From Bacillota bacterium (GTDB lineage Bacteria > Bacillota > SHA-98 > UBA4971), in the NCBI GenBank assembly GCA_024653485.1, contig JANLFY010000007.1, forward strand, positions 62,001 through 126,000: 64,000 nucleotides of DNA. The letters are read 5' to 3'. Each line of letters opens with the position of its first letter. Within the stretch, counting starts at the first letter, position 1. The position numbers and the translations under genes were made by a program. The notes below the pieces were generated by a model. The model saw nothing but the letters and a program-made list of their open reading frames with translations, did no database searches and was not told where the DNA came from. This document shows positions 7,209 to 64,000 of the stretch, one piece after another.

Positions 7209-7625
7209 ATGAGCGACTTTGCATGGAGCCTGCGCACGACTGCGCTCGGGCAGAGCGTGGTTGTGTCTGGCTTTGTACTGCTTTTCACCATGGCTATGGT
7301 GGCCTGGCTCCTCGGCCGCGCGCCAAGACCCAAAGCACGGCGGCGCGCAGGCGGTTTCGAGGGCGCTCTGCCCGCAACTCGAGATTCTACGAGCCCGGGC
7401 ACGGGTTTGGCGACCGAGGTGGTCGATGACGAGGCTGTCGCGGCTATAGCGGCGTGCCTCGCTTGCGCGATGAACGGCCGCTTCGAGGAAGGAGCCGGAC
7501 CAGTAGGTTTGCCGGCTTCTCTCGTAGCGGCGATCGCCGCGGCGATCATCGCCCGTGGGGAAGCGGACAGTGACGCCCTGTCGGGGCAAATAAGCATCAA
7601 GGTCCGGAAAGGAGCTCTGGCATGA
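7209..7625 (+). CDS. OadG-like gamma subunit of a sodium-pump decarboxylase
   Basis: A 138-residue protein with one N-terminal membrane helix (residues ~13-36), then a basic and low-complexity linker and a C-terminal part rich in A and I. This is the layout of the OadG/MmdD-type gamma subunit, which anchors the biotin-dependent decarboxylase to the membrane beta subunit. Identity is weak by itself, so the call leans on the two genes that follow, with which it overlaps (the biotin-carrier start lies inside its last codons). A start at 7209 has AAGGGTG seven bases upstream. No beta subunit is seen in the window. Confidence 0.65.
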   Translation: MSDFAWSLRTTALGQSVVVSGFVLLFTMAMVAWLLGRAPRPKARRRAGGFEGALPATRDSTSPGTGLATEVVDDEAVAAIAACLACAMNGRFEEGAGPVGLPASLVAAIAAAIIARGEADSDALSGQISIKVRKGALA

Positions 7626-8119
7626 GGAAGTTCAAGGTCGTCGTGAACGGAAGGGAGTACAGTGTCGAGGTCATCGAGGAGTCCGAGGCACAGGCGCCTG
7701 CTCCCGCAGCGGCAGCGGGGGCTGAAGCGGCAGCGGCGCGGACGGCTTCAGCCGCGCCGGAGCAGGCTCGGGCGGGCGGCGGCCCGGGGGCATCCCGCAC
7801 CCCATCGGCGGGAGCGCCCGTTTCGTCCGCGGAGGCGCAAGCTCCGGCCCGACGACAGGACGCGCAGGCTGCGCAGGCTGGAACGGTCAGAGGAGTGGAG
7901 GCCCCCTTGGCAGGCACGATACTTGCCGTCCGGGTCAGGGAAGGAGACCGCGTGAAGGTGGGCGATGTGCTCGTGACCCTGGAGGCCCTCAAGTTGGAGA
8001 ACGAGATAGCCTCGCCGTACTCAGGGGTGGTCCGGTCCGTGCCAGTGAAGCCCGGTGACTCCGTCCGGGCGGGCACGGTGCTGGCGACGGTGGAGGAGAG
8101 CGCTCCACATTCGAATTGA
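7622..8119 (+). CDS. Biotin carboxyl carrier protein of a decarboxylase/carboxylase
   Basis: A 165-residue protein. Residues 1-20 are a conserved short N-terminal strand (MRKFKVVVNGREYSVEV) typical of decarboxylase biotin subunits, residues ~25-95 are an Ala/Pro-rich flexible linker, and the last ~70 residues form a biotinyl domain beginning with APLAGTI. The acceptor lysine is K124 in EALKLENE. The usual motif is A-M-K-M; both Met are Leu here, a conservative change, so biotin attachment is still expected but lipoyl-type modification should not be excluded by motif alone. The ATG overlaps the stop of the OadG-like gene, indicating translational coupling. Confidence 0.88.
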   Translation: MRKFKVVVNGREYSVEVIEESEAQAPAPAAAAGAEAAAARTASAAPEQARAGGGPGASRTPSAGAPVSSAEAQAPARRQDAQAAQAGTVRGVEAPLAGTILAVRVREGDRVKVGDVLVTLEALKLENEIASPYSGVVRSVPVKPGDSVRAGTVLATVEESAPHSN

Positions 8120-33197: not shown

Positions 33198-36100
33198 ATG
33201 AGAGCCAGTTTTCCGCGCTCGACACGTTACGCGGCGGCTCTGACAATCCTGGCTGCGGTGCTTCTGGCGGTAGTTGCAAGACCACTTTCAGCCGACAGCG
33301 CCGATACGGGGTACCTTCACGTATACGTAGAGGAACGAGTCTGGGCGCCTTCCGAGCACCCATCGGTGATAGTACGTGGAAAGGGCTCGAGCAGGGTGGA
33401 CCTTGAGGTCTGGAAGTTCGACCCCGCGAAGCAGTATGAGGAGCACGGGTCGCTCAGCTCTGTCGCGGAGACTCTGCCTCGGGGCGAGGCCGTGCTCGTG
33501 AAGGAGATCACCCAGTATCCACGGCCGGAGAAGCAGGGCGAGGACTTCACGCTCGAGGTGCCGATTGCCACCGAGGGAATCGCGGGCTACGTTGTAAGAG
33601 TCAGCGACAACAAGGGTCGCGAGGACGCCACGTGGATCCTCGTGACCGACTTGGGTCTAGTTACTAAACAAGCCGATGACAAGCTCGTGGTATACTCCCA
33701 TACCTTTACCAGCGACGTTCCCTGCGAGCGTGCGCAGGTGACCGTGTTCAGCGAGGGCCGGGAAGTAGGGCGTGGCACCACAGGACATGACGGCGTATGG
33801 GTCCTGAGCACACCGGACCTTCCGAGGAATCTTACGGTAGTTGGAACGTTCGGCACAAGCTTTGCGCAGGTGACATCGTCGTACTACTGGGAAGACTCGA
33901 GGTACAAAGCATACATCTACACAGACAGACCTGTGTATCGTCCAGGCCAGAGAGTGTTCTTCAAGGGCATCCTCAGAAAGGAAATGGACGGCGAGTACGA
34001 GGTCCTCCGCGAGGAGCCGGTGACCGTGGAGGTCCGCGACGCGGTAGATGCGTGCATTTACAAGTTCGAGACCACGACGAACGGTTATGGCTCTTTCGTC
34101 GGAGAGGTGGTGCTGGGAGACGAGCCGTCCCTTGGAACCTACCGAGTGCTCGCGACGGTGAGAGGAAGCACGCACTCGGGCATGTTCAAAGTGGCGGCTT
34201 ATCGCAAGCCTGAGTACCAGGTACAGGTGAAAACGTCAAAGACCACGTATGTGGCGGGAGACGAGATCGAGGCCAAAGTGAAGGCGACTTACTATTTCGG
34301 CGCGCCGGTCCCCGGAGCGAAGGTTCGGTACGCGGTCTACTCGCAACCTCACGAGCTTCCGTACTACTTGCCGGAGGATCTAGGCTACTATCCAGAGGGT
34401 GACACGGATCTCGGTTACTACGGAGAGCTGGTGGCGTCAGGTGAGACCGTCACCGACGCGCGCGGGTCGGCGACGTTCGACGTGAAAACGGGTCCTGCGG
34501 ATACGACGCGCAGAATGTTCATCGAGGCGGTCGTGACAGATGAGAGCAGACGTGAGGTCACGGGCAGAGCCTCGGTGATAGTGGCACGGGGGTTGTTCGA
34601 CCTGAGCGTGCAGCCGGTTGCGTACGTGTTTGAGCCAGGACAGCCCGTCAGCGTGAAAGTGAGAGCCGAGACGATGGAAGGCAGGCCGCTCGCAACGCTC
34701 CTCAAGTGGCAGGCCATGCGCGAAACGTGGGAGGGCAGGAAGGCGAAGAGGTGGAAAGAAGCCTCGGGCGAGCTCCGCACAGCGGCGGACGGGAGAGGGA
34801 GTCTTGAATTCAAGCCTCGCGACGAAGGAGCGTACGTGGTTGAGGTCGTCGGCAGGGATGCTCGTGGTAACCGAATAGCGTCTGAAGCGTACGTATGGGT
34901 TGCGAGCGGGGCGGGTCGCTGGCCAAGTTACGGCGGCCCTGAGATTGAGATCGTCACCGACAAGGATGTGTATAACGTAGGCGACACGGCAAGAGTCCTT
35001 GTGAACACTGTGTTCGATGACGCGTGGGCGCTCGTGGCCGTCGAAGGGCGCGACATCACTTGGCACGAGGTGGCGCACATCGAGGGGCACACCAAGCTGT
35101 TCGAAGTGCCGGTGACGCGGCAGCACATGCCGAACGCGTTCTTCACCGTCACGGTGGTCCGCGGCAAGAGGCTTTTCTCCAACGAGAAGCCCATCTACGT
35201 GTCGACCAAGGACAACTATCTAAACGTGGTCATCATGCCCAACAAGGAGACGTACGAGCCCGGTGAGAAAGCAACGTACGTGGTCAAGACTTGCGACGCG
35301 ACGGGACGCCCTGTGCAGTCCGAGGTGTCGCTCGGAGTCGTCGATGCATCCATATATGCGATCTCGCCGGAAATCGCGCCCGACATCAAGAAGGTGTTCT
35401 ATGGATCCATCTGGAACAGGGTCGTCACGAACTACTCGTTTCCCGAATGGTACTATGGAGGCGCGGACAAGGACGGGGGATCCGCTGAGATTCGGAAGGA
35501 CTTCGAGGACACGGCGTTCTGGAACCCCACCATCATAACGGACAGGAACGGCACCGCGAAGATAGAGTTCACGATGCCCGACAATCTCACCACGTGGCGC
35601 GCGACCGCCAAGGCGCACACGATGAAGACTCAGGTGGGTTCGGCAACCCGCGACGTGGTGGCCACGAAGGACATGATCGTGAGGATCGCCACGCCCAGGT
35701 TCTTCACGTTGGGAGACAAGACGGCGGTCACGACCGTGGTACACAACTACACTGGGCGCAAGAGTGTCGCGAAAGTCGCCATGCGAGCAAAGGGGATCGC
35801 GCTCGTGGACGCCGGAGAGCGCGTGGTCGAGTTGGCTCCGATGAGCCAGAAGTCCATCGACTGGCGGGTTGAGTGCGAAGAGGTGGGAGACGCAAGCTTC
35901 GTAGCGTCCCTCCTGGACGATGACGGCCGAGTGAGGGACTCCATGGAGCAGACCGTGCCCGTGCTCGCCTTCGGAGTTCGCCACGAAGTTCACGAAGCAG
36001 GTGAGAGCGGCGACGAGAGGGTCGTGCGGTTCGACGTGCCTGAGAACGCCCTTGCGGGCACGGTGAAAGCCAAGCTGAGGCTCGCGCCCTCCATCGCGGC

Positions 36101-38345
36101 CACGGCTCTCGGGGCGCTTGAGTATCTGGCGTCCTTCCCATATGGGTGCGTGGAGCAAACCATGAACTCCTTCCTTCCCGACGTGGTCGTGTCACGCGTC
36201 ATTCGCGAGCTCGGGGCGAAAGCGTCAGGGGTGGAAAAGGACCTTCCGAAGATGGTCTCTGCGGGTCTCGCCAGGCTCTACCGCTACCAACACTTCGACG
36301 GCGGTTGGGGTTGGTGGGAATACGACGAGACGGATCCGAGGATGACGGCGTACGTGGTGTACGGCCTCGACCTTGCGCGAAAGGCCGGGTTCGACGTGGA
36401 CGAACGGGTTCTGGCTAGGGGGAAGGCTGCCCTCGCTGAGCTGATCAATGAGCCCCGCAACGTCGATGACCTGGTATACGAGCTCTTCGTCATGTCCGAG
36501 GTCGGTGCGAGAACCCTGCCCAGGCTGAATGAGATGGTCTCGAGGAGACGCGAGCTGTCCGAGTACTCGCTCGCACTCCTCGCGTTGACCCTGCGCAAAC
36601 AGGGCAGGGTGAGCGACGCCCGGCTCGTGCTGAAGGATCTGCTGGCAGCGGCGCGCGGCGACGGTCTGCGGACGTACTGGGACGCCCCGGACGGGGAAAG
36701 GCGCTGGGCGGACAACCGCGTGGAAACGACGGCTCACGCTCTGATGGCGCTGCTCGCGGTGGATCCCAAGAACGAGAGGATACCTAGCGTCGTGCGATGG
36801 CTTGCGGATGCGCGACAGGGTGTGGCGTGGTTTTCCACCAAGGATACCGCAGCAGCGGTGTTCGCACTGGCCGAGTACATCAAGCTGCGCGACGAAGTGT
36901 CGCCCGACTATACAGCGGTGGTTCGCATGAATGGAAAGGACATCGGCAGGGTGCGTTTCACCGCGAAGGACGTTTTCGAGAAAGAGGTTGAAATCGTGGT
37001 GCGCCCCACAGAGATCGTGCGCGGCGCGAACGTGCTCACGATCTCCAAGGATGAAGGGAGAGGCAGGCTATACTATGCTTTCTCGTGCGAATACCACACC
37101 GCTGCGGAGACCGTTTCGCCAGTTGCCAATGGCGTGGCGGTTGTCCGAGGCTACTACAGGCGGTTTCCCGCCCGACAGGCCGCAGGCGGGACAACAGGAG
37201 CAGTGGGCGGGGGGCTCATAGGAGGTGGCGGCGCGTCGCGGGCGCACGCCGACCACAGGGGAACAGACGTCGGCCTTGGGGACAAGACAAGTCACGTGTA
37301 TGAGCCCGTAACCGGACCCGTGAAACCCGGCGAGGAAATATACGTTCGCATAACCATCAGGGCGGACAGTCCATACACCTATGTGATCGTGGAGGATCCG
37401 CTACCGTCGGGATTCGAGGCATCAGACGAACCTGTAGATGCGTACAGCTGGGACTTTTGGTACGGCAGGAAGGAAGTGCGCGACGAAAAAGTGGCCTTCT
37501 TCAGCGGGTACCTGAGGAAAGGCGAGAACGAGATAGTGTATCCCATACGGGCGGAACGGCCCGGGACGTACAGGGTAATGCCGACTCGGGTCTGGGCGAT
37601 GTACTCCCCTGAGGTCTTTGGACAATCAGCAAGCTCGACGATATCTTGCGTTGAACCTGTCCTCGCAAGCTTCTCTACGCTTCTCAAGGATCCCGAGCGC
37701 AGCCGGAACCATAACATCACCCTGGCTGCGGCGGCGGTCGATGGTGTTGTGCTCCAGCCGGGCGAGGAGTTTTCGTTCGACCGCGTCGTGGGTCCGAGGC
37801 TCGCGGAGACAGGGTACAAGGAGGCCCGTGTAATCTCCGGAGGCCGGAGCGAACCGGGGATCGGCGGCGGGGTGTGCCAGGTGTCGACGACCCTCTACAA
37901 TCTGGCGCTGTTGGCGGGGCTGGAGATAGTGGAGCGGCATCCACACTCCAGGCCGGTGGATTACGTCCCGCCAGGGCTCGACGCGACAGTGGCGCAAGGC
38001 CAGTGCGATCTCAAGTTCCGTAACACGCTTGGCGTGCCAATCACCTTCTCGGCGCAAGTGGACGGGGGCAGGCTGGTCATGGAGGCGAGCGGGCGGCTCC
38101 TGAAGCCGCCTGAAGTCAGTGTGACCACGGAGATCCTCAAGACCGAGAGACCGAGGCTGATCGGTAGCCCGAGCGGAGCGGCTCCGGGAGGAGCGGAGGG
38201 GCCCGCGGCTTCCGTGAATGGAGGGGAAGACGGAATCCGTGTAGCCGTGTGGAGGAGTTTCAGGCTTGATGGCGAAACCACAAGAGAGCTGGTATCAGAG
38301 GACTACTACAGACCGGTGCATGCGGTGGCTTCGGCCCTGCATTAG
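33198..38345 (+). CDS. Bacterial alpha-2-macroglobulin fused to a C-terminal VanW domain
   Basis: A 1715-residue secreted protein with a signal peptide (residues ~1-33). It has a chain of macroglobulin beta domains (TDRPVYRPGQRVFFKG near residue 245; bait region toward the middle; FWNPTIITDRNGTAKIEFTMPDNLTTWR as the A2M domain), then the thioester site YGCVEQ with C984 and Q987, and the alpha/alpha barrel (FDGGWGWWEYDE). A late beta domain (VEDPLPSGFEA, ~1400) follows. Residues ~1490-1635 are a VanW domain (LQPGEEFSFDRVVGPR, GGGVCQVSTTLYNLAL). Such proteins trap proteases by covalent thioester attack. No lipobox is seen. Fusion to VanW, a cell-wall associated domain of unknown activity, is unusual. 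The usual PBP1C partner is not adjacent. Confidence 0.92.
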   Translation: MRASFPRSTRYAAALTILAAVLLAVVARPLSADSADTGYLHVYVEERVWAPSEHPSVIVRGKGSSRVDLEVWKFDPAKQYEEHGSLSSVAETLPRGEAVLVKEITQYPRPEKQGEDFTLEVPIATEGIAGYVVRVSDNKGREDATWILVTDLGLVTKQADDKLVVYSHTFTSDVPCERAQVTVFSEGREVGRGTTGHDGVWVLSTPDLPRNLTVVGTFGTSFAQVTSSYYWEDSRYKAYIYTDRPVYRPGQRVFFKGILRKEMDGEYEVLREEPVTVEVRDAVDACIYKFETTTNGYGSFVGEVVLGDEPSLGTYRVLATVRGSTHSGMFKVAAYRKPEYQVQVKTSKTTYVAGDEIEAKVKATYYFGAPVPGAKVRYAVYSQPHELPYYLPEDLGYYPEGDTDLGYYGELVASGETVTDARGSATFDVKTGPADTTRRMFIEAVVTDESRREVTGRASVIVARGLFDLSVQPVAYVFEPGQPVSVKVRAETMEGRPLATLLKWQAMRETWEGRKAKRWKEASGELRTAADGRGSLEFKPRDEGAYVVEVVGRDARGNRIASEAYVWVASGAGRWPSYGGPEIEIVTDKDVYNVGDTARVLVNTVFDDAWALVAVEGRDITWHEVAHIEGHTKLFEVPVTRQHMPNAFFTVTVVRGKRLFSNEKPIYVSTKDNYLNVVIMPNKETYEPGEKATYVVKTCDATGRPVQSEVSLGVVDASIYAISPEIAPDIKKVFYGSIWNRVVTNYSFPEWYYGGADKDGGSAEIRKDFEDTAFWNPTIITDRNGTAKIEFTMPDNLTTWRATAKAHTMKTQVGSATRDVVATKDMIVRIATPRFFTLGDKTAVTTVVHNYTGRKSVAKVAMRAKGIALVDAGERVVELAPMSQKSIDWRVECEEVGDASFVASLLDDDGRVRDSMEQTVPVLAFGVRHEVHEAGESGDERVVRFDVPENALAGTVKAKLRLAPSIAATALGALEYLASFPYGCVEQTMNSFLPDVVVSRVIRELGAKASGVEKDLPKMVSAGLARLYRYQHFDGGWGWWEYDETDPRMTAYVVYGLDLARKAGFDVDERVLARGKAALAELINEPRNVDDLVYELFVMSEVGARTLPRLNEMVSRRRELSEYSLALLALTLRKQGRVSDARLVLKDLLAAARGDGLRTYWDAPDGERRWADNRVETTAHALMALLAVDPKNERIPSVVRWLADARQGVAWFSTKDTAAAVFALAEYIKLRDEVSPDYTAVVRMNGKDIGRVRFTAKDVFEKEVEIVVRPTEIVRGANVLTISKDEGRGRLYYAFSCEYHTAAETVSPVANGVAVVRGYYRRFPARQAAGGTTGAVGGGLIGGGGASRAHADHRGTDVGLGDKTSHVYEPVTGPVKPGEEIYVRITIRADSPYTYVIVEDPLPSGFEASDEPVDAYSWDFWYGRKEVRDEKVAFFSGYLRKGENEIVYPIRAERPGTYRVMPTRVWAMYSPEVFGQSASSTISCVEPVLASFSTLLKDPERSRNHNITLAAAAVDGVVLQPGEEFSFDRVVGPRLAETGYKEARVISGGRSEPGIGGGVCQVSTTLYNLALLAGLEIVERHPHSRPVDYVPPGLDATVAQGQCDLKFRNTLGVPITFSAQVDGGRLVMEASGRLLKPPEVSVTTEILKTERPRLIGSPSGAAPGGAEGPAASVNGGEDGIRVAVWRSFRLDGETTRELVSEDYYRPVHAVASALH

Positions 38346-59157: not shown

Positions 59158-59600
59158 CTCTCGCCGGGTTTTGGGTGGTCTATTGGCGTGGGTCGGTTGT
59201 CGTCGTTGTCGCTACTTGAGTCGTCGCCACTTGGGTCGTTGTCGCCTGCGAGAAGGCGCACGACTCTCTGGTTGCTCATCGCCTACCCGCTCTTGCGGGA
59301 CCCGAGGTGTATGTGAAAGGGCGCGCGCCTCGAATGCCCTGATACCTTGAGCTTTCGTCCGGCGTTCGTCAGGCCGTCGTCCTCGCACCCGACTCCCCGC
59401 CCGACTCCCGCCGGTCCTCTCGCCTTTCTCCTTGCCTATCTTCCAATAAGTCATAACGCAGACCGCGTTCCTCGGTTCCCAAACAAGACACGATCTCGTC
59501 CACTTCTTTTTGATCTCATTTGTCGCCTTTCAGTGGAGGAACTCTCTCATGCGTCGCGAAGAAAACATTGCATAGACCTTCAATTCGGGCCTCGTAAGAG

Positions 59601-59627
59601 CCCTGGTCAGAGCGCTGCCAGGGTTTT
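59601..59627 (+). terminator. Terminator-like hairpin in the V-ATPase leader
   Basis: CCCTGG (59601-59606) pairs with CCAGGG (59618-59623) and is followed directly by TTTT. The stem is only six base pairs. It precedes the V-ATPase promoter by about 16 bases and could end an upstream small transcript. Confidence 0.4.
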
Positions 59628-59642
59628 GGCCTGCTTGAGGGG

Positions 59643-59672
59643 TTGTTGTGCTTTGCGTTCTTGTAGTAGAAT
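59643..59672 (+). promoter_or_regulatory. Candidate promoter of the V/A-ATPase operon
   Basis: TTGTTG (59643-59648), an 18-base spacer and TAGAAT (59667-59672), about 25 bases ahead of the first subunit start. Confidence 0.5.
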
Positions 59673-59697
59673 AGGTGATGGTCGGGAGGTGGGGTGC

Positions 59698-60024
59698 TTG
59701 GCTTACGAGGCCCTCAGGCAGTTGGAGGCGGCCGAGGCACGAGGGGACGAGATCCTCAGAGAGGCTCAGACGCGCGCGAGGTCGATTGTCCAGGATGCCC
59801 GTACCACAGCACGGATGATCATAGAGAACGCGATCGCGGAGGCGGCCGCCCAGGCCGCAGCGAGCGCCAGGGCCCAGGAGGCCGAGGCCAAGGCGGCTTG
59901 TGCCGTCGTAGCGGAAAGGGCGGCTAGCGTCTGCCGCGACCTGGCAAGCCAGGCCCGGGCCAGGATGTCACTGGCAGTCGATCTAGTGGTGGAGAGGATC
60001 GTGACGGCAAGTGGCAGTCGCTAG
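59698..60024 (+). CDS. V/A-type ATP synthase subunit H (peripheral stalk, G/H-like)
   Basis: A ~108-residue, Ala-, Glu- and Arg-rich, wholly helical protein (EALRQLEAAEARGDEILREA onward), the pattern of the peripheral stalk subunit that pairs with subunit E. TTG at 59698 follows GGGAGG by eight bases; the longer frame from 59347 is rejected. It overlaps the subunit I gene by 14 bases. First gene of the operon H-I-K-E-C. Such low-complexity helices cannot be named from sequence alone; the order decides it. Confidence 0.75.
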   Translation: MAYEALRQLEAAEARGDEILREAQTRARSIVQDARTTARMIIENAIAEAAAQAAASARAQEAEAKAACAVVAERAASVCRDLASQARARMSLAVDLVVERIVTASGSR

Positions 60025-62029
60025 AATGAAGAAGGTCGTCCTGGTTGCACCGGTCTCGGAGGCTCGCGGGATCGCCGAGACCCTCCAGGAATTGGGCGTT
60101 CTCGAGCTCGTGAGGGAAGATTTGCAGGTCGATGGCGTGATGCCTAACGATGGCGCCGGCGCCTCCAGGGCTTCTGTCGGAGGTATTCAGGGTGACCGCG
60201 CAGGCCAGGCCGACGACGCCCGGGGCTTGGAGGAGATCGACCAACGCCTTAGTGAGCTAAAGTTCTGCATAGAGTTCCTTGACAGGTTCGAGAAGGTCAA
60301 GAAGAACCTCATTCAGCAATTCGCCGGCGGGAAAGTGCCCCTTTCCGAGTCAGCGTTCGAGGAATACGGCGGGCTATACGAAGAAGGCCACGAGGTGTAC
60401 GAACGCTGCCGACAGCTGGACGAGGAGCTCACCAGGCTTCGCAACGAGGAGAGTCGCGTTCACTCCACGCTCAGCCAGCTCGAGCCGTGGTCGTGGCTCG
60501 ACGTCCCGCTTGCTAGGATCTCGGGGACGCATTTCCACTCGCTCATCTTGTGCGAGGTCCCCAAGAGGGCGCTCGACTCTGTCATAGATCGGCTCGAGGA
60601 ATCCTGCTACGCCGTGCACATCGAGCGCGGACCTGAGAACAAGAGGACAGTGCCGGTTGCGGTGATATGCCCTGCCACCGATAGGCAGAGCGTGCTCGAC
60701 GTGCTTGCGGAGAGAGGACTCGCTCCCGCCCAGTTGCCCGCGGCCGACGGCGCGCCAGCCGAGGAGATCCGAGCGTGCGGCGAGGAGCTCGCCCGCATCG
60801 CGCGCGAAACGGAGCGGGTAATGGGTGAGGTGAGACGCGTCCTCCCTGAACGCGTCAAGATACTATCACTGTACGATAGCCTGTCTCTGGAGCGGGATAG
60901 GCGAGCGCTTGAGCGCGGCTGTCCAACGACGCGGACGGCCTTTGCCCTGGAGGGATGGGTGCGCGCTTCCGATCTCCCTGAGCTTGAGAAAGCGCTCGCG
61001 CCGCAGTCGGGGCTGGTATATGTTGAGACGCGGGACCCAATCGAGGGCGAGATCCCGCCTGTTGCGCTGGAGAACCCAGGGGCTGTGACTCCTTTTGAGG
61101 CCGTGACAGAGATCTACAGTATGCCTCAGGGCGGATCGGTGGACCCCACAACTGCGTTGGCACCGTTCTTCCTGGTATTCTTCGGCATAGCCCTCGGTGA
61201 CGTTGGCTACGGGCTCGGCCTCACTGCGCTTTCCCTCCTACTCATGAAAAAGGTCAAGATGGCTGGTCTCGCAAAGAAGCTCTTCACTCTCCTAGCCATG
61301 TGCGGGGTATCGTCAGCGGTCGTGGGGGTCCTGACAGGAGGCTGGTTGGGCAATCTCGTCAAGATCCCGCCACTCTGGTTCAACCCGATGGACAACCCCA
61401 TGCTCATGCTGGGGGTGTCGTTCGCCCTGGGCATAGTCCACATCTACGTGGGTCTTGGAATCAAGTTCTACTCCAACGTAAAGCGCGGGAGGCCTCTTGA
61501 CGCTGTCTTCGACCAAGGGCTCTGGTACGTATTCCTCACGGGCCTTCTCCTCCTTCTGGGAGGCACGAGTTTGAGGAACGAAGGGCTTGCGGCCGCAGGC
61601 CGGTGGGCTTCTCTTGCCGGGGCGGCTGGGCTCATCCTTACCCAGGGGCGCGCGCACAAGAACCCTCTCAAGCGTCTTGGATCGGGAGTCCTCAGCCTCT
61701 ACGGGGTGACAGGGTATCTCAGCGACGTGCTGTCGTATTCCAGGCTTCTCGCGCTCGGGCTCGCCTCATCGGTGATCGCGGTGGTGATCGACGACATGGC
61801 CTTGCGGATGGCCGGAGTGCCGTTCGTGGGGTGGATTCCCATGCTCCTTTTGCTCCTGGTGGGACACGGGTTCAACCTCGCGATCAACGTGGTGGGCTCG
61901 TACGTGCATTCGAGCAGGTTGCAATACGTGGAGTTTTTCAGCAAGTTCTTCGAAGGGGGCGGGCGAAGGTTCCTGCCCTTCAGAAAGAGGACGAAGTACA
62001 TCGAAGTCATGGAGGAAGGGGAGGCATAA
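60011..62029 (+). CDS. V/A-type ATP synthase subunit I (a subunit)
   Basis: A 672-residue protein that forms the stator half of the ion channel. The N-terminal ~370 residues are cytoplasmic, with coiled coil (residues ~75-150). The C-terminal half has about seven or eight membrane helices starting at LAPFFLVFFGIALGDVGYGL. The essential Arg is R578 in SYSRLLALGLA, which faces the K-ring. GTG start at 60011 gives the usual MAVARMKKV opening; overlap with the H gene suggests coupling. Confidence 0.94.
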   Translation: MAVARMKKVVLVAPVSEARGIAETLQELGVLELVREDLQVDGVMPNDGAGASRASVGGIQGDRAGQADDARGLEEIDQRLSELKFCIEFLDRFEKVKKNLIQQFAGGKVPLSESAFEEYGGLYEEGHEVYERCRQLDEELTRLRNEESRVHSTLSQLEPWSWLDVPLARISGTHFHSLILCEVPKRALDSVIDRLEESCYAVHIERGPENKRTVPVAVICPATDRQSVLDVLAERGLAPAQLPAADGAPAEEIRACGEELARIARETERVMGEVRRVLPERVKILSLYDSLSLERDRRALERGCPTTRTAFALEGWVRASDLPELEKALAPQSGLVYVETRDPIEGEIPPVALENPGAVTPFEAVTEIYSMPQGGSVDPTTALAPFFLVFFGIALGDVGYGLGLTALSLLLMKKVKMAGLAKKLFTLLAMCGVSSAVVGVLTGGWLGNLVKIPPLWFNPMDNPMLMLGVSFALGIVHIYVGLGIKFYSNVKRGRPLDAVFDQGLWYVFLTGLLLLLGGTSLRNEGLAAAGRWASLAGAAGLILTQGRAHKNPLKRLGSGVLSLYGVTGYLSDVLSYSRLLALGLASSVIAVVIDDMALRMAGVPFVGWIPMLLLLLVGHGFNLAINVVGSYVHSSRLQYVEFFSKFFEGGGRRFLPFRKRTKYIEVMEEGEA

Positions 62030-62035
62030 CACACG

Positions 62036-62530
62036 ATGGACGTCACACTAGGCATGATCCTGGGATTTCTCGGCATAGCCCTGGCGGTGGCCCTGCCAGG
62101 CGTCGGATCGGCCATGGGGGTAGGGCTAGTGGGCTCGGCGGGGTCGGGGGTCGTCACGGAGGACCCGGACAAGTTCGGACAGATACTGCTCTTGCAGGTC
62201 ATTCCCGGAACGCAGGGCATATACGGGCTCCTCACTGGGTTCGTCCTCATGATGAAGCTCGGGGTGTTCAGCGGGAGCGTGCTCAGACTGACAACGTCCG
62301 AAGGGCTGCTCGTCATAATGGCTGTGCTCCCCATCGCCGTGGTCGGCTGGCTTTCCGCAATTCACCAGGGAAAGGTCGCGGCGGCTGGCGTTGGGGTCGT
62401 GGCGAAGAGGCCTGAGGAGCTGGGTAAGCCCGTTACCTTCGCGGCCATGGTGGAAACGTACGCGGTGCTTGCGTTCCTCGCGTCGCTGCTTCTCATCATG
62501 TTCGGCCTGCCTCTCAAAGGAGTGGCGTGA
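62036..62530 (+). CDS. V/A-type ATP synthase subunit K (rotor ring, Na+-type)
   Basis: A 164-residue proteolipid with four membrane helices (two fused c-type hairpins). The first hairpin has IPGTQGIYG with T59 and Q60; the second has HQGK with Q111 and MVETYAV with the ion-binding E140. These match T64, Q65, Q110 and E139 of the sodium-binding NtpK of Enterococcus hirae, so Na+ rather than H+ is the predicted coupling ion. Only one carboxylate per four helices is present, as usual for V-type rings. ATG follows the subunit I stop closely. Confidence 0.95.
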   Translation: MDVTLGMILGFLGIALAVALPGVGSAMGVGLVGSAGSGVVTEDPDKFGQILLLQVIPGTQGIYGLLTGFVLMMKLGVFSGSVLRLTTSEGLLVIMAVLPIAVVGWLSAIHQGKVAAAGVGVVAKRPEELGKPVTFAAMVETYAVLAFLASLLLIMFGLPLKGVA

Positions 62531-63130
62531 ATGTCGGCTCTCGAGAAGATGCAGGAGAAGATCCTGCAAGATGCGAAGGCCAAGGCTGACGAGATCGTGG
62601 CTGCGGCCACGGCGGAGGCTCAGGCGATAGTGGCCGAGGCCAGGGAAGAAGCTACGAGAAAGCGAGATGAGGTGCTGGCGCGGGGCAAGGAGAACGCCGA
62701 CGAAGAGATGAGGCGTGCCCTAACACTCGCGGAGCTTGATGCCCGCAAACAACTGCTTGCAACGAAGGCTGCCCTCATCGACGAGGTATTCCAGGAAGCT
62801 CGGAAGCGGCTCACTTCGCTGGAACCGGGCCGGTACAGGGCTTACTTGAAACGGGCGATTCTCGAGGCCGTGGAAAGCGGCGAGGAAGAGGTCGTCCTGT
62901 CGGCACGGGATCTCGAGAGCGTCGGACCTGAAGTCGTGTCGGAGGTGAACGCGGAGCTGGCGAAGCAAGGTCGTAAGGGCGCGCTTCGACTTTCCGGCGT
63001 TCCCGGCGGATTCACCGGAGGCTTCGTCTTGCGGACGGGAAGAACGGAAGTGAACTCCACGTTCGATGCCCTCCTCGCGCGAGAGCGCGAAGCGTTGGTA
63101 GTTGAGGTAGCAAAGGTCCTGTTCGGCTGA
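62531..63130 (+). CDS. V/A-type ATP synthase subunit E
   Basis: A 199-residue peripheral stalk subunit: N-terminal half is a long Ala/Glu/Lys coiled coil (residues ~1-100), C-terminal half the globular vATP-synt_E domain ending in GGFVLRTGRTEVNSTFDALL, which is the family signature. The ATG follows the TGA of subunit K with no gap. Confidence 0.93.
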   Translation: MSALEKMQEKILQDAKAKADEIVAAATAEAQAIVAEAREEATRKRDEVLARGKENADEEMRRALTLAELDARKQLLATKAALIDEVFQEARKRLTSLEPGRYRAYLKRAILEAVESGEEEVVLSARDLESVGPEVVSEVNAELAKQGRKGALRLSGVPGGFTGGFVLRTGRTEVNSTFDALLAREREALVVEVAKVLFG

Positions 63131-63160: not shown

Positions 63161-64000
63161 GTGACGGACGGCGAGATGCTAGGGCTTGAATCCAGGTACG
63201 CATATGCTACCGGGCGCGTGAGGGTGCTCGAGACGAGGCTCCTCGACCGGGGTCGCATAGACCGGATGATCGAGGCCCCCGACCTCGAGGGGGCGCTGAA
63301 AGTATTGGCCGAGGCGGGCTATGCCCGCGCTCAGGTTTCGGGCAGATCCCTCATGACCGTTGACGAGATAACGTCGAGTGAGGAAGCCAGGCTTGCTCGT
63401 CTGATTCAGGAGACGGCTCCGGAGCCAGGGCTCGTGGAGTTGGTCACGGCGAGATGGGACTTCCACAACCTGAAGGCGATGATGAAGGCGAAGCTGCACC
63501 GAGTTCCTCCGGAGAAGGCTGTGGCGAGGCATGGCGCCTGCGACCTGGCTTTGATCGAACGTGCGGTGGAAGGTGACGGAAGGGGCCTGCCAGCTCAACT
63601 CGCTGAGGCGCTCAGCGTGGCCAGGGCTGCCCACGAACTGCGCCCCACTCCTGAGACCATCGACATCGCGGTGGACCGCGAGATGTATCGCTACCTTCTG
63701 GCGAAGGCGAACTCGCTCCGCATTCGGTACCTTGTGGACCTCATTCAAACGGAGATAGACCTCTTTAACCTCGCGGTTTACTTCAGGTCGAGGAGGATGG
63801 GGAGGGACAGACGGCTTGCGGAGCAAGCGATGGCGCCTGGCGGAAAGCTGAGCCCGCTCATGCTCATGGCGTCGTACGACCAGCCTCTTGAAGCCGTGGC
63901 AACGAGCGTGGCGGGCACCGGATACGAGGCCTTGGCGGGTCGGGCAGCGGGCGCGCTCGCAGAAGGAAGGCCCATCGCCGAGTTGGAGAGGATGTCGGAG
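63161..64000 (+). CDS. V/A-type ATP synthase subunit C, 5' part (runs off the window)
   Basis: The reading frame is open to the last base (about 280 residues seen; full length about 340-360). The start region LGLESRYAYATGRVRVLETRLLDRG is typical of AhaC/NtpC, the socket that joins the central stalk to the K ring; ATARWDFHN-like (VTARWDFHNLKAMMKAKL) and DREMYRYLL are further marks. GTG at 63161 or ATG at 63176 could be the start; both have imperfect ribosome spacing. Subunits F, A, B and D should follow downstream. Confidence 0.9.
   Translation, partial: MTDGEMLGLESRYAYATGRVRVLETRLLDRGRIDRMIEAPDLEGALKVLAEAGYARAQVSGRSLMTVDEITSSEEARLARLIQETAPEPGLVELVTARWDFHNLKAMMKAKLHRVPPEKAVARHGACDLALIERAVEGDGRGLPAQLAEALSVARAAHELRPTPETIDIAVDREMYRYLLAKANSLRIRYLVDLIQTEIDLFNLAVYFRSRRMGRDRRLAEQAMAPGGKLSPLMLMASYDQPLEAVATSVAGTGYEALAGRAAGALAEGRPIAELERMSE

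Follow-up and report, generated by a model that had tools for sequence, protein, structure and literature searches.

Which ion is carried by the rotary ATPase whose genes lie at the end of a 64,000-nucleotide stretch of a Bacillota genome (the window), and does the enzyme mainly export that ion or make ATP? We approached the question through the rotor subunit K, which holds the ion site, and then through the rest of the genome and its relatives.

Subunit K and the V-type operon

The gene for subunit K is an open reading frame for 164 aa on the forward strand, with an ATG start and a purine-rich stretch immediately 5' of it. Its best solved relative is NtpK of Enterococcus hirae (2bl2), detected by phmmer with an E value of 2.9e-35 and 124.8 bits (query residues 6-155 on 11-154) and with 48.6% identity (70 of 144 aligned residues). 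A degraded gene was ruled out, as the frame is intact and has high-identity counterparts within the genus. The gene and the codons of its predicted site are as follows.

62036..62530, + strand: subunit K of the V/A-type ATPase, NtpK-like, with two hairpins and a single carboxylate; NCBIfam NF005124, 202 bits against a cut-off of 127, and phmmer
62210-62212 and 62213-62215, + strand: codons of T59 and Q60 (NtpK T64 and Q65); sequence and alignment
62222..62224, + strand: codon of Y63 (NtpK Y68); sequence and alignment
62366..62368, + strand: codon of Q111 (NtpK Q110); sequence and alignment
62453..62455, + strand: codon of E140 (NtpK E139, the ion-binding carboxylate); sequence and alignment

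A sequence-only reading of the window had equated T59, Q60, Q111 and E140 with the Na+ ligands T64, Q65, Q110 and E139 of NtpK, and the alignment reproduced these four pairs exactly. It also paired Y63 with Y68, a fifth site residue that was absent from the earlier list and is described as stabilizing the glutamate (PMC2359735). NtpK L61, reported to contact the ion through its backbone only (PMC2359735), is replaced by I56. The first hairpin of K carries no carboxylate at the site, where G58 is found as in NtpK; each two-hairpin subunit is therefore expected to bind a single ion, like that of E. hirae. An AlphaFold model of the single K sequence, made without an alignment, had a pLDDT of 50.1 and was uninformative on site geometry.

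K belongs to a complete V-type operon, in the order stalk-I-K-E-C-F-A-B-D, in which one stalk gene is weakly supported. The genes for F, A, B and D follow C beyond the window; those around K are listed here.

59347..60024, + strand: probable peripheral-stalk subunit (NtpF position), preceding I; residues 121-190 weakly match F0 b
60011..62029, + strand: V-type ATPase subunit I (stator a subunit); 8wci_P, E 1.2e-59
62531..63130, + strand: V-type subunit E; NF003049, 81 bits, under the cut-off of 225
63161..64000, + strand: V-type subunit C, running past the window end

Only the C-terminal part of the stalk-like product looks homologous, and the true start of this gene is uncertain. In subunit I, an SYSRL motif aligns with SYTRL of E. 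hirae NtpI, so that the pattern SY-S/T-RL is kept. K adjoins I and E, as in the E. hirae operon. The two operons differ in that the gene after D in this genome encodes an ABC transporter on the opposite strand.

Comparison with known rings and conservation of the site

K shares with NtpK the two-hairpin architecture, the sole carboxylate in hairpin 2 and all five side-chain residues of the site (T64, Q65, Y68, Q110 and E139), in an operon with a full V-type subunit set and an NtpI-like stator, the first stalk gene being the weak member. It differs in a six-residue longer link between the hairpins and in the isoleucine at position 56, and its use of Na+ is a prediction.

The ring of the Thermus thermophilus V/A-ATPase (6qum, 5gar), which translocates protons, served as the comparison. 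Its hairpin is homologous, and both proteins have the threonine, the TM1 glutamine and the glutamate. However, the Thermus subunit is a single hairpin with its own carboxylate, an arrangement not found in K, and it has Glu in place of G58, Leu in place of Q60 and Phe in place of Y63. Since T59, Q111 and E140 also have equivalents in the Thermus ring, Q60 and Y63 are the residues that discriminate between the two types. The correspondence of Q111 and E140 to Thermus positions rests on a MAFFT alignment; a BLAST comparison of K hairpin 2 with the Thermus hairpin gave no match.

A published sequence rule (PMC11738941) assigns Na+ specificity to K subunits with a complete Na+ motif. The K of the window satisfies this rule, and we found no difference from the Na+-specific bacterial A-ATPases predicted in the ProAD resource as described there. 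The earlier reading had predicted a sodium-driven rotary ATPase. Its assignment to the Na+ type stands under the published rule, with Q60 and Y63 as the only discriminators; "sodium-driven" stays a prediction, because enzymes with a Na+ site can use H+ when Na+ is absent.

To see how common the residue set is, we searched 61 genomes, including the source genome, at an E value of 0.001 or lower. This search gave 41 K matches in 37 of the 61 genomes. Conservation was counted in the best 30 of the 41, again with the source protein included; these were selected by similarity to the query, and the 11 weaker matches lie outside the count. The five residues T, Q, Y, Q and E were all kept in 30/30 of these best matches, in which 28 of the 164 columns were invariant. 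All five ligand columns fall among the invariant 28 (hypergeometric p about 1e-4, with columns taken as independent and sequences chosen by similarity). Conservation of this extent rules out a chance match of the ligands. It also indicates that the five-residue set is the family default among the homologues examined and no special feature of this protein. The 2025 ProAD census lists 9,167 A-type enzymes, of which 4,927 are predicted to use Na+ (PMC11738941). With 30 of 30 homologues sharing the residues and thousands of such A/V-type enzymes in the census, the V-ATPase of the window represents a sound Na+ prediction, but an ordinary one.

Coupling ion and direction of the V-type enzyme

Other genes of the genome bear on the coupling ion to different degrees. 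The sequence-only reading had cited a carboxylase cluster and two MATE antiporters, all within the window, as fitting a Na+ enzyme.

7209..7625, + strand: OadG-like small membrane protein; PF04277, 23.1 bits, E 1.2e-4, under the cut-off of 27
7622..8119, + strand: biotin carrier protein; PF00364, 60.6 bits
8055..9551, + strand: carboxyltransferase (PYC/OadA type); PF02436, 179.9 bits
38596..40005, + strand: MATE transporter; PF01554, 220.8 bits
40057..41427, + strand: MATE transporter; PF01554, 192.8 bits
Contig C1:191664-192713: OadB, ion-translocating

The window contains alpha-type, biotin and gamma-like parts of a putative Na+-pumping oxaloacetate decarboxylase. These carboxylase genes support a Na+ enzyme only in part, because the beta subunit, OadB, sits on another contig. 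Both MATE genes were confirmed by PF01554, but we rejected them as evidence for Na+, because MATE transporters can be coupled to either Na+ or H+. Elsewhere, the genome holds an Rnf-like cluster (two Rnf-Nqr Pfam matches with neighboring open reading frames) and two membrane pyrophosphatases with the GNTTAA motif, which marks K+ dependence. OadB, the Rnf-like cluster and the two pyrophosphatases are counted as predicted Na+ context for the V-type enzyme. As a separate observation, positions 33198-38345 of the window encode a bacterial alpha-2-macroglobulin of 1715 aa, which carries a VanW domain at the C terminus.

In the complete V/A-type ATPase, K is very probably a rotor subunit like E. hirae NtpK, and we propose that the enzyme would carry Na+, one ion per K, coupled to ATP. 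We infer that K assembles into a ring in which each subunit would bind one Na+ between its two hairpins, with T59, Q60 and Y63 contributed by hairpin 1 and Q111 and E140 by hairpin 2. Rotation of this ring against subunit I would move Na+ through the membrane and couple that transport to ATP in V1.

The proposal has to be weighed against a ring that retains its Na+ site yet uses mainly H+ in vivo, as could happen in a habitat of low Na+ or low pH. Na+-dependent ATPases are described as able to move H+ in the absence of Na+, and some Na+ ligands as persisting in H+ enzymes (PMC2359735); weak H+ selectivity is described even for the enzyme of E. hirae (PMC3692424). Pure H+ use, however, would make the full ligand set seen throughout the best 30 of 41 homologues needless, and further Na+-type genes are present in the same genome. 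We consider main use of H+ improbable.

The direction of Na+ transport calls for a separate judgment. The enzyme might work mainly as a Na+-driven ATP synthase and not as a Na+ exporter, a reading favored by the sister genus g2, where K was found in 7/7 genomes and F-type gamma and F-type c matches in 0/7 each, leaving the V-type enzyme as the only rotary ATPase detected. Moreover, the E. hirae enzyme is reported to make ATP under a sodium motive force in liposomes (PMC12018189). Against this, the genus of the window has two F-type sets in 6/6 genomes, which could do the synthesis, and we regard a mainly synthetic role as somewhat unlikely. A Na+-carrying V-type enzyme is thus most likely mainly an ATP-driven Na+ exporter in its own genus; in the sister genus, it may also act as a synthase.

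The F-type ATPases and an orphan delta domain

The genome encodes three rotary ATPases, one V-type and two F-type, which is invisible from the window; each of the six genomes of the genus has two F-type gamma genes. The first F-type enzyme, on contig C5, has by its residues a Na+ signature and an Acetobacterium woodii-like rotor of fused c1 and single c. Its fused c of 195 aa (L008:5702-6289) has E in hairpin 1 and Q in hairpin 2, with c1 of A. woodii as its nearest match (4bem, E 1e-57), and its single c (L009:3659-4024) is closest to 4bem c1/c2. In this operon, c1 and c are about 15 kb apart, and the genes between them look by eye like xanthine-type catabolic ones; in another genome (G002, L082), the two are adjacent. 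The fused form occurs in 6/6 genomes of the genus. It is not rare: among the matches listed by a scan designed to find fused c1, it was present in 79/79 kept loci, hence in at least 79. A motif scan counted two hairpins in 63 of these 79 listed matches. The other 16 (of L088-L166) are fusions of three or more hairpins, mostly with E first and then Q (e.g., L105, L112, L132, L134 and L155).

The second F-type enzyme, on contig C6, has a c subunit (L010:7525-7779) in which the Na+ motif lacks its Gln, Ser/Thr and Tyr; by the simple rule, it would use H+. This assignment is not certain, as Asp stands at the Gln position. With Ala-Thr-Pro after the Glu as well, the ring may be a two-carboxylate one. 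Its alpha subunit of 616 aa (L010:5037-6887) carries at its N terminus a delta C-terminal domain (PF00213, positions 103-172, 42.8 bits), and no separate delta lies beside the gene. The fusion was present in 8/8 operons read (this one and L171-L177), and uninterrupted delta-alpha frames also occur in other families of the phylum. A literature search found no description of it among the papers listed, which is weak evidence of absence.

Although g2 yielded no F-type gamma or c match, a delta N-terminal domain (profile 6-97) was detected in 6/7 of its genomes, with one in-frame stop counted in 2/6. In the four loci read, the open reading frame was intact in all.

L209:5204-5587: orphan delta N-terminal domain, g2
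L210:2664-2978: orphan delta N-terminal domain, g2
L211:5349-5663: orphan delta N-terminal domain, g2
L212:5778-6092: orphan delta N-terminal domain, g2

Three of these four loci share neighbors with the flanks of the F-type operon of genus g1 (a kinase-like frame in 3/3, a HAD-like frame in 2/3). Among the four frames, dN/dS was low, about 0.06-0.08, for the five pairs whose dS was finite; dS was saturated in the sixth pair.

We put forward, as a speculation that we ourselves think quite unlikely to hold in full, that the lineage splits ion coupling over three machines: the V-type enzyme with Na+, the Na+-signature F-type enzyme with its mixed rotor, and the second F-type enzyme, in which alpha brings its own delta domain, so that there would be three stalk-docking domains per enzyme and perhaps several peripheral stalks. 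The orphan delta domain of g2 would have been retained in a new role, whether with the V-type enzyme or in another setting.

By itself, K adds one predicted Na+ V-ATPase to thousands and has little significance. The F-type and orphan-delta findings are of more interest: three rotary ATPases in one genome, next to a sister genus with apparently the V-type only, would allow one to ask what each machine is for.
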